Source: Bacteriovoracaceae bacterium (GTDB taxonomy: Bacteria > Bdellovibrionota > Bacteriovoracia > Bacteriovoracales > Bacteriovoracaceae). Taken from it: a stretch of 64,000 bases of DNA. This document shows, piece after piece, positions 33,604 through 38,257 of the stretch (position 1 is the stretch's first letter; each line of letters begins with the position of its first letter). Both the position numbers and the translations under genes were made by a program. The notes beneath the pieces were generated by a model. It searched no databases. It was not told the DNA's origin and saw nothing but the letters and a program-made list of their open reading frames with translations. The stretch covers positions 62,001-126,000 of the forward strand of contig JAIEMA010000005.1 of the NCBI GenBank assembly GCA_019752535.1, in the 5' to 3' direction.

Positions 33604-34027
33604 CCGAATGACGTCCTTAGCCAGAAAGACCTTCCAGTGGTCTCTCTGAGAACTTATCGGACAAAAAATCGAGAAATTTTAAACAAACACCATTTGCCCC
33701 TATCTTTTTACACAATGAGCCAAGTCGCTGTTATCACAAGCATTGAACGGTATTTTTTGCCTTATCGAATCTTAATATAGTGTTTAGCACAATTATTTTG
33801 ACGGAGTATGTTGACGGCCTTGCAACGCGTTTAGTATCTATGCCCACGAACAACGCAATTTGCTCAACCGAACATAGCGTCACTTTCCGTAGCTTCGATC
33901 TTGCGGAAAGATTTAGACACTTATGGCCGAAACTGACTAAAAGGCGTTTTACAAAACACTAGTTATTTATAATAGTACCTCGGTCTTTATCGACAGGTAG
34001 GAAACCAAATCAGATAGGGGAAACGAT
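33604..34027. other. 424-base gene-free region between divergent genes
   Basis: It holds the promoters of the TPR lipoprotein (minus) and the PhaR-like gene (plus). The short ORFs here lack coding character. There are two TTGACGG repeats 12 bp apart (33799, 33811) and a 7-bp stem (CTTTCCG/CGGAAAG, about 33884-33911) that could belong to a small RNA or leader, but with no terminator after it I do not call an RNA gene. Confidence 0.4.
33968..33973 (+). promoter_or_regulatory. -10 box of the PhaR-like gene
   Basis: A perfect TATAAT about 55 bp before the ATG; no good -35 box at 16-18 bp. The predicted leader of about 48 nt ends in AGGGGAAACG, a usable Shine-Dalgarno. A conventional promoter, unlike the leaderless ones nearby. 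Confidence 0.45.
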
Positions 34028-34426
34028 ATGAAAGAAGTTAGAATCATTAAGCGCTACCAGAACCGCAAGCTGTATGACACATTTCAGTCTTGCTACGTGA
34101 CCCTTGAGGAAATCGCTCAGATCATCCGCGAAGGCCATGAAATCCAAGTCATCGACAACAAGTCAAAAAACGACATCACGTATATGACTCAGATCCAGTT
34201 GTTGTTTGATCAAGAGCGTAAAGCTTTGAAGCCAGGTAACACTGAACTTCTTAAGCGCGTTATCCGCTCTGAAGAAGGAACTTTGACTGGCTACATCACA
34301 ATGCTTGAAGCAAAGCTTGGAATGGAAGTTTCAACTCCAGAAGTAGCACCAGCTGTTACTGAAGAGTTCAAGCCTTTCCTTTCAACAATGACTTCAACTG
34401 TTGAGAACACGGCTACTTTGAACTAA
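34028..34426 (+). CDS. PhaR-type (PHB accumulation regulator) DNA-binding protein
   Basis: A 132-residue protein. Residues 4-65 match the PhaR N-terminal domain: IIKRYQNRKLYDTFQSCYVTLEEIAQ with the invariant RYxNRKLYDT, then an IQVIDNKSKNDIT stretch. The second domain (about 66-100) resembles PHB_acc. In other bacteria PhaR represses phasin and PHB genes and binds PHB granules. No PHB synthase or phasin gene is in this window, so in this organism the protein may control something else, possibly the beta-barrel gene beginning 10 bp downstream. Confidence 0.85.
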   Translation: MKEVRIIKRYQNRKLYDTFQSCYVTLEEIAQIIREGHEIQVIDNKSKNDITYMTQIQLLFDQERKALKPGNTELLKRVIRSEEGTLTGYITMLEAKLGMEVSTPEVAPAVTEEFKPFLSTMTSTVENTATLN

Positions 34427-34429
34427 TAT
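34401..34429 (+). promoter_or_regulatory. Leaderless promoter inside the end of the PhaR-like gene
   Basis: TTGAGA (34401-34406) and TAATAT (34424-34429), 17 bp apart, with the -10 ending 6 nt before the ATG at 34436. The -10 contains the PhaR-like stop codon. No Shine-Dalgarno precedes the ATG. Confidence 0.6.
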
Positions 34430-34435
34430 CCTCTT

Positions 34436-35143
34436 ATGAGGAATTCGATTTATAAAAAAGTCGCGGCTTCGGTCGCGACTTTTCTTTTTACAGCCCCCCT
34501 ATTAGCCCAAACGAAGCCATTCGCTCCGAAGATTCAAACTCCTTCTACAAAAGAAGAGTTAGTTTCAAAGGAAAAGCCTGTTGCTGAAAAACCCAAAGAA
34601 GCGGAAAAGTCTGAACCACAAGTTTCGGCTAATGCGCCTGCGCCTCGCCGTCTAAGACAGCACTCTTTTGGTGTAGGTCTTGGTGAGACATTTCTTTTAG
34701 GAAAATACGCAGACTATGGTCAAGACAAGATAACAATGGATCTTCTCTATTCATATGCGGCCAGTTACTCATTTGATGTCCTTGTGAATGCTCACTGGAG
34801 TGAGCATAAAGACAAATCTGAAAAAATGCGTGTGATGGGATTAAACGCTGCACTCAAGAGCCGTCTTTTTGAATTCGATAATTTCTCACCTTATGTTTTG
34901 GGTGGTTTGGGCTTTTATGCTCCAAGAGCTTATCGAAATGTGAATGGCAGCAATAAGTGGTCTGAACAGAAAATCACATTCGGCGCCAATTTTGGTGGCG
35001 GCGTTGATTTAAGATTAAATGATGAGTGGACAGTGGGAGCACTTGGACAGCTTCATTGGCCTTTCACTGCAAAACAAGACAATGGTCCTGACGTCAAAGG
35101 CTATTACTTTAAACTGCTACTGACTCTCGCCTATTCATTCTGA
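34436..35143 (+). CDS. Outer-membrane beta-barrel protein (OmpA/porin-like)
   Basis: A 235-residue exported protein: signal peptide 1-25 (ending LLAQ), a Pro/Glu/Lys-rich linker (about 26-75), then an eight-strand-like barrel of alternating strands (FGVGLGETFLLGKY, ITMDLLYSYAASYSF, FSPYVLGGLGFYAP, ITFGANFGGGVDLRL) ending in aromatic Phe as barrels do (LLLTLAYSF). Probably OMP_b-brl type. Codons 7-18 form a strong intrinsic terminator, and the promoter appears leaderless. The two ArsA-like genes follow 10 bp later. Confidence 0.75.
   Translation: MRNSIYKKVAASVATFLFTAPLLAQTKPFAPKIQTPSTKEELVSKEKPVAEKPKEAEKSEPQVSANAPAPRRLRQHSFGVGLGETFLLGKYADYGQDKITMDLLYSYAASYSFDVLVNAHWSEHKDKSEKMRVMGLNAALKSRLFEFDNFSPYVLGGLGFYAPRAYRNVNGSNKWSEQKITFGANFGGGVDLRLNDEWTVGALGQLHWPFTAKQDNGPDVKGYYFKLLLTLAYSF
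34456..34489 (+). terminator. UUCG-loop intrinsic terminator inside a signal-peptide coding region
   Basis: A 12-bp stem, AAAAGTCGCGGC against GTCGCGACTTTT (one G-T pair), closes on a UUCG tetraloop (34468-34471) and runs into CTTTTT (34484-34489). It is within codons 7-18 of the beta-barrel gene and about 30 nt past the PhaR-like stop. It may end PhaR-like transcripts and, when not covered by ribosomes, stop the barrel mRNA. Confidence 0.8.
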
Positions 35144-35152
35144 GGATCACGC

Positions 35153-35977
35153 ATGGGTTTCACCCCGAAGCGTCTTTATATCTTCACTGGCAAAGGTGGG
35201 GTGGGCAAAACCACTCTCTCTTTAGCATTTACTCAATGGCTTAGAGAACAAAACCTCTCAGCAACGTACCTCACTCTCTCCCAGCAAGCACTCAGCGACG
35301 AGAGGGCGAGCTATCCGACCCAATCTCTAAATGAATGGGGAAACATTCCACATATCCATCTCGAACTTGAAGAATGCGCCGAAGGCTATATTTCCAAAAA
35401 ACTCGGCTCATCCATGCTCTCTAAATGGATCGTGAAAACGGCATTTTTTAGGGCCCTCGTGAATATGCTGCCCGGCTTTGGGTATGTGATTTCTGTAGGA
35501 AAAGTTCTCGATATGCTCAATGAAGACCCACAATTAATTATCGTACTCGATGCACCTGCTTCGGGTCACGCGCTTGCTATGCTTGAGGCGACTTCAAATT
35601 TTAGAGAAATTTTTCAAGCGGGCTTAGTTTTTGATGATACAGAGAAAATGCTTAAGAGACTTTACGATGAGAAGCACACAGGAGTGAGGATTCTGACCTT
35701 ACCCACGTCGCTTTCCATGCAGGAAGCCGTTGAACTTAAAACGTCAGTTCAAAAGCTCGCTCCCCTTGATACTAAAATCTTCCTCAATCATTCTTTAGAA
35801 AGTTGGACAACAGAGCTCTCTGATGCCCCTGTTGCAATGAAAGAGAAACTCTCGCTCGAGCTTGAAGTGATTGAAGAATTTAAAAATGATCTCAGCGCCT
35901 CAATCCCTTATTCGGCAAGCTCGTCTGCTAAAGAAATTTATCAAGACATTAAATCTTCATTGGAGAAATTTGTTTGA
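35153..35977 (+). CDS. ArsA/Get3-like ATPase, subunit 1
   Basis: A 274-residue protein of the deviant-Walker ATPase group. P-loop GKGGVGKTT (signature Lys intact), a switch-II-like LDAPASGHAL segment, and a C-terminal half with SLSMQEAVELKT. In ArsA this group drives arsenite export; in Get3 it targets tail-anchored proteins. No arsenic genes and no CxxC metal site are present, so neither role follows directly. It is followed by a second, different ATPase with TTGA overlap, suggesting a heterodimer. It is shorter than typical ArsA halves. Confidence 0.8.
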   Translation: MGFTPKRLYIFTGKGGVGKTTLSLAFTQWLREQNLSATYLTLSQQALSDERASYPTQSLNEWGNIPHIHLELEECAEGYISKKLGSSMLSKWIVKTAFFRALVNMLPGFGYVISVGKVLDMLNEDPQLIIVLDAPASGHALAMLEATSNFREIFQAGLVFDDTEKMLKRLYDEKHTGVRILTLPTSLSMQEAVELKTSVQKLAPLDTKIFLNHSLESWTTELSDAPVAMKEKLSLELEVIEEFKNDLSASIPYSASSSAKEIYQDIKSSLEKFV

Positions 35978-37041
35978 AAATCCCAATAAGATCATTTGAT
36001 ATTTTTTTCGGAACAGGCGGAGTAGGTAAAACGACTCTTGCTACCGCTCGTGCCATTCAATTGGCCAATGAAGGGCAGCGCGTGCTTCTCATGACAATTG
36101 ATCCGGCTAAGCGCCTCAAAGATATTTTGGGCTTAGGCGATGATTGTGCCGGTGAGATTAAAACTATTAGTGAACTACCCGAGATAGGAAAAATTAAAAC
36201 TCCTTTTGATGCCCTCTTAATGTCTCCTCCAAAAACGATTGAAAGGATGGGACAGGCGGCCGGAGTGAAAGAGCTCTCTCAAAATAGAATTGTAGAAGTT
36301 CTCGCACGCCCCAATGGGGGTATGAATGAAATTCTCTCCTTGATTGAGCTTCAATCCCGACTTGAGTCGGGAAAGTATGATTGTGTGGTTCTTGATACAC
36401 CACCTGGTCCGCATTTTTTAGATTTCTTAGATGGCCTTGAAAAAATCAAAAGTTTTTTTGATCAACGTTTTGTAGAGATCTTTACTTCTTTAGGCCGAAG
36501 AGCAATGGAGCAGCCTCATAAAGGTCTTATGAGCGGGCTAATTGATAAAGTCGTAGGAGCTGGAGTGAATAAGCTTCTCTCTTACCTTCAAAAAGTGACT
36601 GGTGAGAAATTTGTAGAGGACTTCCTCGCTGCGCTTGAAGTTATTTATCGCTCTCGCTCTTCATTTGTCTCTGGTCTCGCCATGGAAAAAAAGCTCTGCG
36701 ATCCACTCCAAGCGAATTGGTTTTTGGTGACATCTGTGGAGCAAGGTAAATTCAACGAAGCTAAAGAAATTCAGCTCGCTGCTGCAAAAAAACAAAGAAA
36801 AGAAATGTTTCTTCTTTTAAATAAGGCCCTGATTCACCAGCTGGAGAGCTGGAATCCTGAGGCCGGCTCAAAGGCTGCCAAACTTAAAGAGTCTCTTGTT
36901 ATCAAAGAGAAGAATTTACGAGATATAACAAAGACGCATTTTACTGGTTTATTTGATTTTCCTGAAATCATGGCCAGCTCGCCCACTCAACATGTTAAAG
37001 AATTAGCTCTCCAATGGAGTCATCATGCAAATAGTAACTAA
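35974..37041 (+). CDS. ArsA/Get3-like ATPase, subunit 2 with altered P-loop
   Basis: A 355-residue ATPase of the same fold, starting with TTG inside the previous stop. The P-loop reads FGTGGVGKTTLA: the Gly-Lys after the first Gly, the signature lysine that acts across the dimer, is Thr here. A-type features DPAKRLKDILG and VVLDTPPGPHFLDFL are kept, and a long helical C-terminal region (about 165-330) follows. One subunit with and one without the signature lysine suggests an asymmetric dimer with one full catalytic site. It overlaps the gshA start by 17 bp. Confidence 0.8.
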   Translation: MKIPIRSFDIFFGTGGVGKTTLATARAIQLANEGQRVLLMTIDPAKRLKDILGLGDDCAGEIKTISELPEIGKIKTPFDALLMSPPKTIERMGQAAGVKELSQNRIVEVLARPNGGMNEILSLIELQSRLESGKYDCVVLDTPPGPHFLDFLDGLEKIKSFFDQRFVEIFTSLGRRAMEQPHKGLMSGLIDKVVGAGVNKLLSYLQKVTGEKFVEDFLAALEVIYRSRSSFVSGLAMEKKLCDPLQANWFLVTSVEQGKFNEAKEIQLAAAKKQRKEMFLLLNKALIHQLESWNPEAGSKAAKLKESLVIKEKNLRDITKTHFTGLFDFPEIMASSPTQHVKELALQWSHHANSN

Positions 37042-38257
37042 AGATCAACTTGAAGAGTTTGTTTGTAAAAACTGGGAAATGCTCAATCGCCAGATTGATG
37101 AGTGGCAAAGTGAATTCACACAGCCCATTTATTCAAGCGTGGATATTCGCGAGAGCCAAACGAAATATGCACCAGTCGATCACAATCTCTACCCTGCTGG
37201 TTTTAATAACATCTGTCAGAAAGACCTTAAGGCTGCATCGCAACTTTTTAAAGACGGTCTTCTCAAGTTGTGTCCAGGAGCAGGCAGAGTAGCACTTATC
37301 CCTGAGTCTCACACAAAGAATAGATGGTATCTTGAAAATGTGTTCTACCTCGCTCAGTCTCTTGAGGGAGCTGGATTCAGTGTTGATATTATTTCACCTG
37401 ATAAAAATTTATTTGCAGAAGGTCCAACGCTTCAGCTTAAGACTCAATCTGAATTTGATCTCACTATTCATCAAGTCAAAGTGGAAAACGGTTTTTTCCA
37501 AAGAGTGGATGGCAATACAAATATCTATGATGTGATCGTCCTCAATCACGATCAATCAATTCCTTTAGATGTCGATTGGAAGAATTTCCAAACGCCAGTT
37601 GCGCCGACACCATTTGCTGGTTGGACTAGACGCCACAAAAACATCCACTTCAAATACTATCGAGAAGCCGCAAAGCAGTTTTGTGAATTGTATGAAATTG
37701 ATCCTAATCTCATACAAGCTAAATTTAGATCCGTTGACGGCGTTGATTTCGAAACTAAAGAAGGAATTGATAAGCTTGCGAATGAAGTGGACGCCCTCCT
37801 CAAGGAGCTGCCAGAGGGTTCAAGTGTATTTGCAAAAGCCTCACAAGGGACCTATGGAATGGGGATTTCCGTGTTCTCAAGTAGAGATGAGGTCCTCAAT
37901 ATGAATCGAAAAACACGTAACAAAATGGATATTGGTAAAAATAATATCAAATTCACTAGTGTCTTAGTTCAAGAGGGTGTGGAGACCATTATTAAGGTTG
38001 AAGATGCGCCCGCTGAGATCACGACCTATCTCGTGGCCGGAAAAGCGATGGGTGGTTTTATGCGCTATAACCCCCAGCGTGGTACGAATGCCAATCTCAA
38101 CTCTCAAGGGATGCTTTATAACAAGTTTTGCTTTAGCGATATTTGCCAAGACACTGATACGCACATCAAAGAAGCCGTTTATGCTTTGATTGGCAGACTA
38201 TCTGTGCTGGCAGCTTCTCGCGAACTTCATGAATTACAAGAACAAGGAAGACTATAA
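37025..38257 (+). CDS. gshA: Glutamate-cysteine ligase (GshA, PF08886 type)
   Basis: A 410-residue enzyme that joins glutamate and cysteine, the first step to glutathione. It belongs to the compact proteobacterial type rather than the E. coli GshA type. Recognisable segments are YAPVDHNLYPAGFNNIC, IPESHTKNRWYLENV, LNHDQSI, WTRRHKNIHF and MRYNPQRGTNANLNSQGM. It overlaps the ArsA-like gene upstream and the next gene by one base (TAATG), so it is translated with the cystathionine enzyme that can supply cysteine. No glutathione synthetase is seen next door. Confidence 0.88.
   Translation: MQIVTKDQLEEFVCKNWEMLNRQIDEWQSEFTQPIYSSVDIRESQTKYAPVDHNLYPAGFNNICQKDLKAASQLFKDGLLKLCPGAGRVALIPESHTKNRWYLENVFYLAQSLEGAGFSVDIISPDKNLFAEGPTLQLKTQSEFDLTIHQVKVENGFFQRVDGNTNIYDVIVLNHDQSIPLDVDWKNFQTPVAPTPFAGWTRRHKNIHFKYYREAAKQFCELYEIDPNLIQAKFRSVDGVDFETKEGIDKLANEVDALLKELPEGSSVFAKASQGTYGMGISVFSSRDEVLNMNRKTRNKMDIGKNNIKFTSVLVQEGVETIIKVEDAPAEITTYLVAGKAMGGFMRYNPQRGTNANLNSQGMLYNKFCFSDICQDTDTHIKEAVYALIGRLSVLAASRELHELQEQGRL

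Follow-up and report, generated by a model that had tools for sequence, protein, structure and literature searches.

A conserved terminator-type hairpin within signal-peptide codons of the beta-barrel gene that follows phaR in Bacteriovoracaceae

The stretch of DNA that we analysed, here called the window (64 kb), is part (contig 3) of a 3.49-Mb draft genome whose closest named relatives are Bacteriovoracaceae genomes. The window holds a phaR-like gene (Table 1), which scored 78.5 bits against the NCBIfam PhaR model, under that model's cut-off of 109.45. A gene encoding an outer-membrane beta-barrel protein starts 9 nt after the phaR-like gene and is followed by two genes encoding ArsA-type ATPases and by gshA. 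On the other side of phaR lies a TPR-repeat gene, which remains divergent from phaR in 52 of 54 loci; the 424 nt between the two genes (33604-34027) contain no convincing gene.

Table 1. Features of the phaR-barrel locus, in window positions.
Feature	Position	Strand	Basis or remark
phaR-like gene (132 aa), upstream partner	34028..34426	+	Pfam PHB_acc_N 1.9e-25, above cut-off
-35-like TTGAGA in phaR V-E-N codons	34401..34406	+	TTGA(A/G)A kept family-wide; V/I/L codon always GTT/ATT/CTT
-10-like TAATAT; TAA is the phaR stop codon	34424..34429	+	17-nt spacing; T at sixth position conserved
Small 5-pair hairpin TCCTCTTATGAGGA around barrel ATG	34429..34442	+	nearly identical in five congeners; putative element
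Outer-membrane beta-barrel gene (235 aa)	34436..35143	+	Pfam OMP_b-brl 4.6e-8, above cut-off
Predicted terminator hairpin, 12 pairs, cUUCGg loop	34456..34483	+	fold; relatives keep it with changed stems
Predicted terminator U tract CTTTTT	34484..34489	+	directly 3' of the hairpin
ArsA-type ATPase 1	35153..35977	+	9-nt gap after barrel; synteny 53/54 loci
ArsA-type ATPase 2	35974..37041	+	downstream of ArsA-type ATPase 1; synteny 53/54 loci
Glutamate-cysteine ligase GshA	37025..38257	+	Pfam GshA 7e-114

Of 129 genomes of the family (Bacteriovoracaceae/Halobacteriovoraceae), 126 have a phaR homologue, and 80 named contigs also have one; removal of duplicates left 79 loci with a downstream gene. 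The non-redundant set (n=44) holds loci that share under 70% identity across their signal-peptide codons. The same barrel family comes after phaR in the related loci: with the exception of one truncated contig, the downstream genes of the 79 loci scored above 230 bits against a barrel profile, which was itself built mostly from these loci. Among the 54 loci with sufficient flank, 53 keep the order phaR-barrel-arsA-arsA, and only short gaps separate barrel and arsA; gshA comes next after the arsA pair in 20 loci whose fetched flank extends that far, so that gshA probably belongs to the same operon. Two routes of entry into the operon are known, from phaR and from a promoter that overlaps the phaR stop; given the conserved gene order, every known route therefore crosses the hairpin described below. 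A transcript of the barrel gene cannot start past this hairpin without forfeiting the signal peptide.

The promoter-like pair TTGAGA-17-TAATAT, described from the window sequence in a preliminary description of this DNA, is present at 34401-34429, and its -35 part is conserved among relatives at synonymous sites. Outside g1 and genus g37, the phaR codon that supplies the first T of TTGAAA reads GTT in 21/21 loci with Val, ATT in 11/11 with Ile and CTT in 3/3 with Leu; in the same phaR genes GTT and ATT account for about 47-48% of Val and Ile codons. The sixth base of the -10 is T in 34 of the 44 non-redundant loci, compared with 9-24 at adjacent positions. This fixed codon choice and the conserved -10 T therefore point to selection on the DNA, as a promoter would show. 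The -35 is strong in g1 and weaker, degenerate (TGGAAA), in g37, and the motif is absent at phaR ends outside the family.

In the window TAATAT ends 6 nt ahead of the barrel ATG at 34436, and a start predicted 7 nt past the -10 falls on the ATG itself; hence the barrel mRNA is predicted to be leaderless. The stretch 'ATCCTCTT' upstream of this ATG holds no Shine-Dalgarno sequence, a feature that had been pointed out for the window and proved usual throughout the family (SD core at 19/74 barrel genes vs 70/74 phaR genes). The leaderless arrangement proposed at the same time applies to part of the family: a promoter about 7 nt before the start without a Shine-Dalgarno was found in the window, its congeners, L012 and genus g37, where gaps are 9-10 nt, and elsewhere the predicted leader reaches about 45 nt. 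Six loci (L073, L074, L096, L109, L180, L181) have a strong small hairpin between the phaR stop and the barrel ATG, e.g. GGGGGATATTAATCCCCC, which lies just past the predicted transcription start and may shield the 5' end or act otherwise. We also considered whether occlusion of the AUG separates phaR read-through RNA from leaderless RNA, and set the idea aside, since g37 gave some signal of this kind and the window's genus gave none.

The hairpin, AAAAGTCGCGGC-TTCG-GTCGCGACTTTT, includes one G-U among its pairs and begins in codon 7, 20 nt past the A of the barrel ATG. It occupies codons 7-16, with the T-rich tail in codons 17-18, all within the codons of the signal peptide MRNSIYKKVAASVATFLFTAPLLA. 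Thus the 12-bp UUCG-loop stem with its U tail from codon 7 is where it had been reported, as are all other parts of the element within 34401-34489. The predicted folding energy is -23.5 kcal/mol (z = -3.9), equalled by 0 of 200 shuffles. In the window genome by itself the case for the hairpin is modest: 12 of 300 synonymous recodings of the first barrel codons match its strength, and neither promoter-like sites (8 vs 7.1) nor terminator-like sites (5 vs 5.2) are commoner in the region than in shuffles. What raises the hairpin above chance is its conservation among relatives.

Each locus was scored by folding the 40 nt that run up to and include a T-rich tract and comparing the energy with that of 300 synonymous recodings. 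Over the 79 loci the mean energy was -17.3 kcal/mol, against -6.0 in the synonymous shuffles; 71 loci passed at 5%, 63 at 1%, and 47 beat all 300 recodings. The non-redundant set behaved alike, with 39/44 loci passing at 5% and 33/44 at 1%, and shuffles of signal-peptide codon order were beaten at 1% by 71 of 76 loci. A GC-rich hairpin followed immediately by a U tract, the hallmark of an intrinsic terminator, is thus found at 34456-34489 and in 71 of the 79 loci, so the terminator-type element first noticed in one signal peptide is conserved above synonymous chance. By this score, four loci with short to moderate gaps (L099, L108, L109, L112) lack a complete terminator in the signal-peptide codons. 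Some misses reflect limits of the method: L105 has a hairpin whose loop is too long for the 36-nt span of the score, and L109 has the hairpin but no T tract. In genomes with two phaR-barrel copies (L042/L053, L080/L084) the hairpin is kept at both.

It could be argued that signal peptides mimic terminators by chance, their Lys codons being rich in A and the Phe codons after them rich in T, and the window gene alone, with its 12/300, would fit this. We surveyed 1184 genes, of which 758 were called in 0.8 Mb of G109, a relative, and 426 came from the window's genome (about 0.45 Mb of it), and found hairpins of -15 kcal/mol within the first 38 codons in 15 (~1.3%). Among signal-peptide genes 6 of 402 reached that strength, two of these being the barrel itself. 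With 39/44 non-redundant loci passing the synonymous shuffles, we consider chance a very improbable explanation; for the family as a whole a chance look-alike was ruled out by three nulls, namely synonymous codons, codon order and other genes of the same genomes. A general rule by which a short gap brings a terminator into the next ORF was weak and was dropped: at -15 kcal/mol the counts were 10/429 vs 4/736 (p = 0.01), and at -13.5 kcal/mol 10/429 vs 12/736 (p = 0.5).

The sequence of the stem turns over while its pairing is kept. Counted over its inner 8 nt, the left arm comes in 44 versions across the loci. Two congeners have the stem AAAGCCGCGGT/ACCGCGGCTTT, two others AAAGTCGCCG/CGGCGACTTT, genus g37 ACTCATGGCC/GGCCATGAGT and marine forms GTGCCAGTGG/TCACTGGCAC. 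Within g37 the peptide changes from L-M-A...A-M-S to L-V-A-T...V-A-T-S with both arms altered together, from ACTCATGGCC/GGCCATGAGT to ACTCGTGGCCAC/GTGGCCACGAGT, and the residues therefore co-vary in a way that preserves pairing. Arms of the same locus are 96-100% paired, high by construction, vs 42% when arms are swapped between loci, a contrast that is a sign of stem diversity and no test of pairing. The tract carries 6.1 T per 9 nt vs 5.3 expected from synonymous codons, partly biased by the choice of tract, and its Phe codons are 99 TTT and 0 TTC, which is not main evidence because the tracts were picked as T-rich.

We asked to which gene the hairpin belongs. Measured from the barrel ATG, the T tract is at +56.6 (sd 8.9); measured from the phaR stop it is at +80.3 (sd 22.6), and this second distance scales with gap length (r = 0.96). 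Being steady from the ATG and variable from the stop, the hairpin therefore belongs to the barrel ORF. Its 5' arm starts on average at ATG+27 and nowhere earlier than +17 (+20 in the window). An initiating ribosome covers to about +15, so that the arm is just past the cover of an initiating ribosome and within reach of an elongating one.

Outside the family the picture differs with gap length. In other families of the phylum phaR often has an ordinary terminator about 25-60 nt past its stop (L193-L195, L197-L201). In the sister family f8 the barrel also comes after phaR, usually 68-320 nt off, and a strong terminator is present in many gaps of 94-320 nt, while the signal codons there form nothing comparable. 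In L205, the one f8 genome whose gap is 26 nt, the hairpin lies within the signal-peptide codons, and two genomes with gaps of 71-82 nt (L214, L226) have one near the ORF start. Conversely, a family member with a 171-nt gap (L087) has an intergenic terminator and the signal-peptide hairpin is absent. Because the terminator often lies between the genes in long-gap sister lineages, as it does in L087, it is probably ancestral to phaR and would have shifted into the barrel gene as the gap was lost. Just 3' of phaR, two loci of other families have very long inverted repeats that are nearly perfect: about 35 pairs in L189, and GGTGCCAGGCCGTGTTTACGGAC... in L195.

Together these comparisons give good support to the view that the signal-peptide hairpin is an intrinsic terminator, predicted to end phaR transcripts and to throttle the operon. 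The hairpin would very likely end the transcript of the phaR-like gene, in the way that intergenic terminators do in sister lineages. It would end most phaR transcripts and halt most of the polymerases on either route into the operon, from phaR or from the overlapping promoter. In our view polymerase would most probably pass mainly when a ribosome already at work on the signal peptide covers the 5' arm of the hairpin, and passage of this kind may serve regulation. We give about even chances to this reading as a whole, in which a terminator in the ORF ends the phaR RNA, throttles the operon and is passed when the signal peptide is translated. The ORF is the sole site downstream of the operon's own promoter where ribosomes could override a terminator, and a hairpin kept in the ORF despite leaders of 35-55 nt in several lineages is what would be expected if translation must override it. 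The preliminary description had tied only outer-membrane protein output to such an element, which is too narrow because the barrel, both arsA genes and probably gshA would be gated.

Opening of a stem-loop terminator by ribosomes has been demonstrated by mutation in S. gallolyticus pil1 (PMC3894217). On the other side, E. coli data (Li et al. 2015, as reviewed in PMC7858274) put terminators that lie within the first 100 nt of an ORF at close to 100% efficiency despite translation, because ribosomes still lag behind polymerase, and a pyrL terminator placed in a translated reporter still lowered output about 18-fold (PMC5021804). A fresh ribosome on the leaderless end may often come too late. 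The likeliest ribosome would be one that, having completed phaR, reinitiates 9-10 nt further on at the barrel ATG, or else one that binds the leaderless end very early. A restarting ribosome, or plain leakage, is at least as likely as the immediate leaderless engagement originally proposed; a ribosome coming from phaR is better timed for short gaps, not for gaps reaching 55 nt. A search for antiterminator pairing gave no consistent result across the family (18 of 70 loci at 5%, mean rank 0.38). In L014 and other g37 loci the start-codon region reads CATGAGT, as the terminator's 3' arm does, and could pair with the ACTCATG of the 5' arm; this possible antiterminator would cover the AUG as well.

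The main rival, and a serious one, is a fixed leaky terminator: the hairpin ends the phaR RNA, and a constant fraction of polymerases passing it sets the ratio of phaR to the operon, with little role for translation. We regard this as a real possibility, somewhat short of an even one. The overlap with the signal peptide would be a remnant of gap collapse around an ancient phaR terminator, and the placement in the ORF could indeed simply reflect loss of the intergenic gap. The ordinary terminators soon after phaR in sister lineages, the strong ones in many 94-320 nt gaps of the sister family and the one that L087 keeps in its 171-nt gap all agree with a leaky terminator. So do the hairpins in lipoprotein signal codons at nqrF-apbE, in 10/29 loci with mostly short gaps, where apbE plausibly requires lower expression than nqr, and the internal terminators that set operon stoichiometry in clostridia (PMC9045158). 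Yet gaps of 35-55 nt would permit a hairpin nearer phaR and it is kept at ATG+57, and a conserved promoter upstream of the terminator is odd if termination ignores events between the two.

That same promoter, lying over the phaR stop with a terminator 55-100 nt on, might instead mark a gene for a short trans-acting RNA. Both elements are conserved at sRNA-like lengths, and the E. coli rules reviewed in PMC7858274 predict near-total early termination. We think a small RNA improbable, as the stem and the sequence upstream of it turn over between genera with no conserved seed, and the hairpin keeps its place in the signal-peptide part of the reading frame, something for which an sRNA has no need. 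No upstream segment is common across genera and Rfam gave no credible match, so neither a seed nor a known family marks the element as a 3'UTR-derived sRNA. Its unvarying position within signal-peptide codons would also suit a coding hairpin that acts on translation or targeting, slowing ribosomes at the signal peptide, or on mRNA decay, and not on transcription; mRNA-programmed pauses in membrane targeting have been described (PMC4359368). A U tract right after the stem (the 6.1 vs 5.3 T given above), the rarity of such hairpins in other signal-peptide genes of these genomes and the exchange with intergenic terminators according to gap length make a purely translational role unlikely.

A second junction in the window's genome carries a similar element. 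At L235 (G000:C4:47378-48415) an apbE-like lipoprotein gene overlaps the apparent end of nqrF, and its signal codons contain a terminator-type hairpin, CACCCTGCC-TCTG-GGCAGGGTG, followed by T8; with L236, L238, L239, L244, L253, L254, L256, L263 and L264 this makes the 10/29 family loci, so the device may form a small class. More speculatively, and on balance doubtfully, signal-peptide codons might be a preferred terminator site at compact junctions, suited to it because their residues need only hydrophobicity. They would then form a class of translation-gated checkpoints in which the operon of an exported protein is transcribed only while its signal peptide is translated, with phaR-barrel as the best case, nqrF-apbE as the second and L205 of the sister family as an independent one.

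In nearly all sampled genomes of the family the operon would be readable only by passing a stop signal within its own first gene. A signal peptide that doubles as a terminator means that two codes are selected together, with residues shifting jointly to keep the RNA pairing. If translation gates the terminator, the expression of an exported protein would be coupled to translation without a regulator protein. Terminator finders that skip coding sequence overlook conserved elements of this kind, and recoding such a gene would alter its transcription.

A search of largely open-access literature found no published account of this element. The nearest likeness is pil1 of Streptococcus gallolyticus, where a translated frame running into a stem-loop terminator opens it and deletion of the start codon or of the stem alters expression (PMC3894217). 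There a separate leader peptide with phase-variable repeats precedes a terminator located before pilA, whereas here the terminator is within the signal peptide of the first structural gene and there are no repeats. The ribosome-mediated attenuators of trp and pyrBI likewise have a terminator close to the promoter, and where the ribosome stands can decide whether it forms; in contrast to them, the present loci have no regulatory codon run, no consistent antiterminator and no separate leader peptide, the ORF over the hairpin being the barrel itself in all loci. Internal terminators of cellulolytic clostridia are also intrinsic, lie between operon genes and lower downstream expression, but they are located in long intergenic regions (PMC9045158) and not in an ORF with a promoter ahead. 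Finally, premature 3' ends within coding sequence have been mapped in E. coli and Borrelia, many of them attributed to Rho or processing (PMC7815308, PMC10319736), whereas the element described here is one predicted intrinsic terminator, at one place, conserved through the family.
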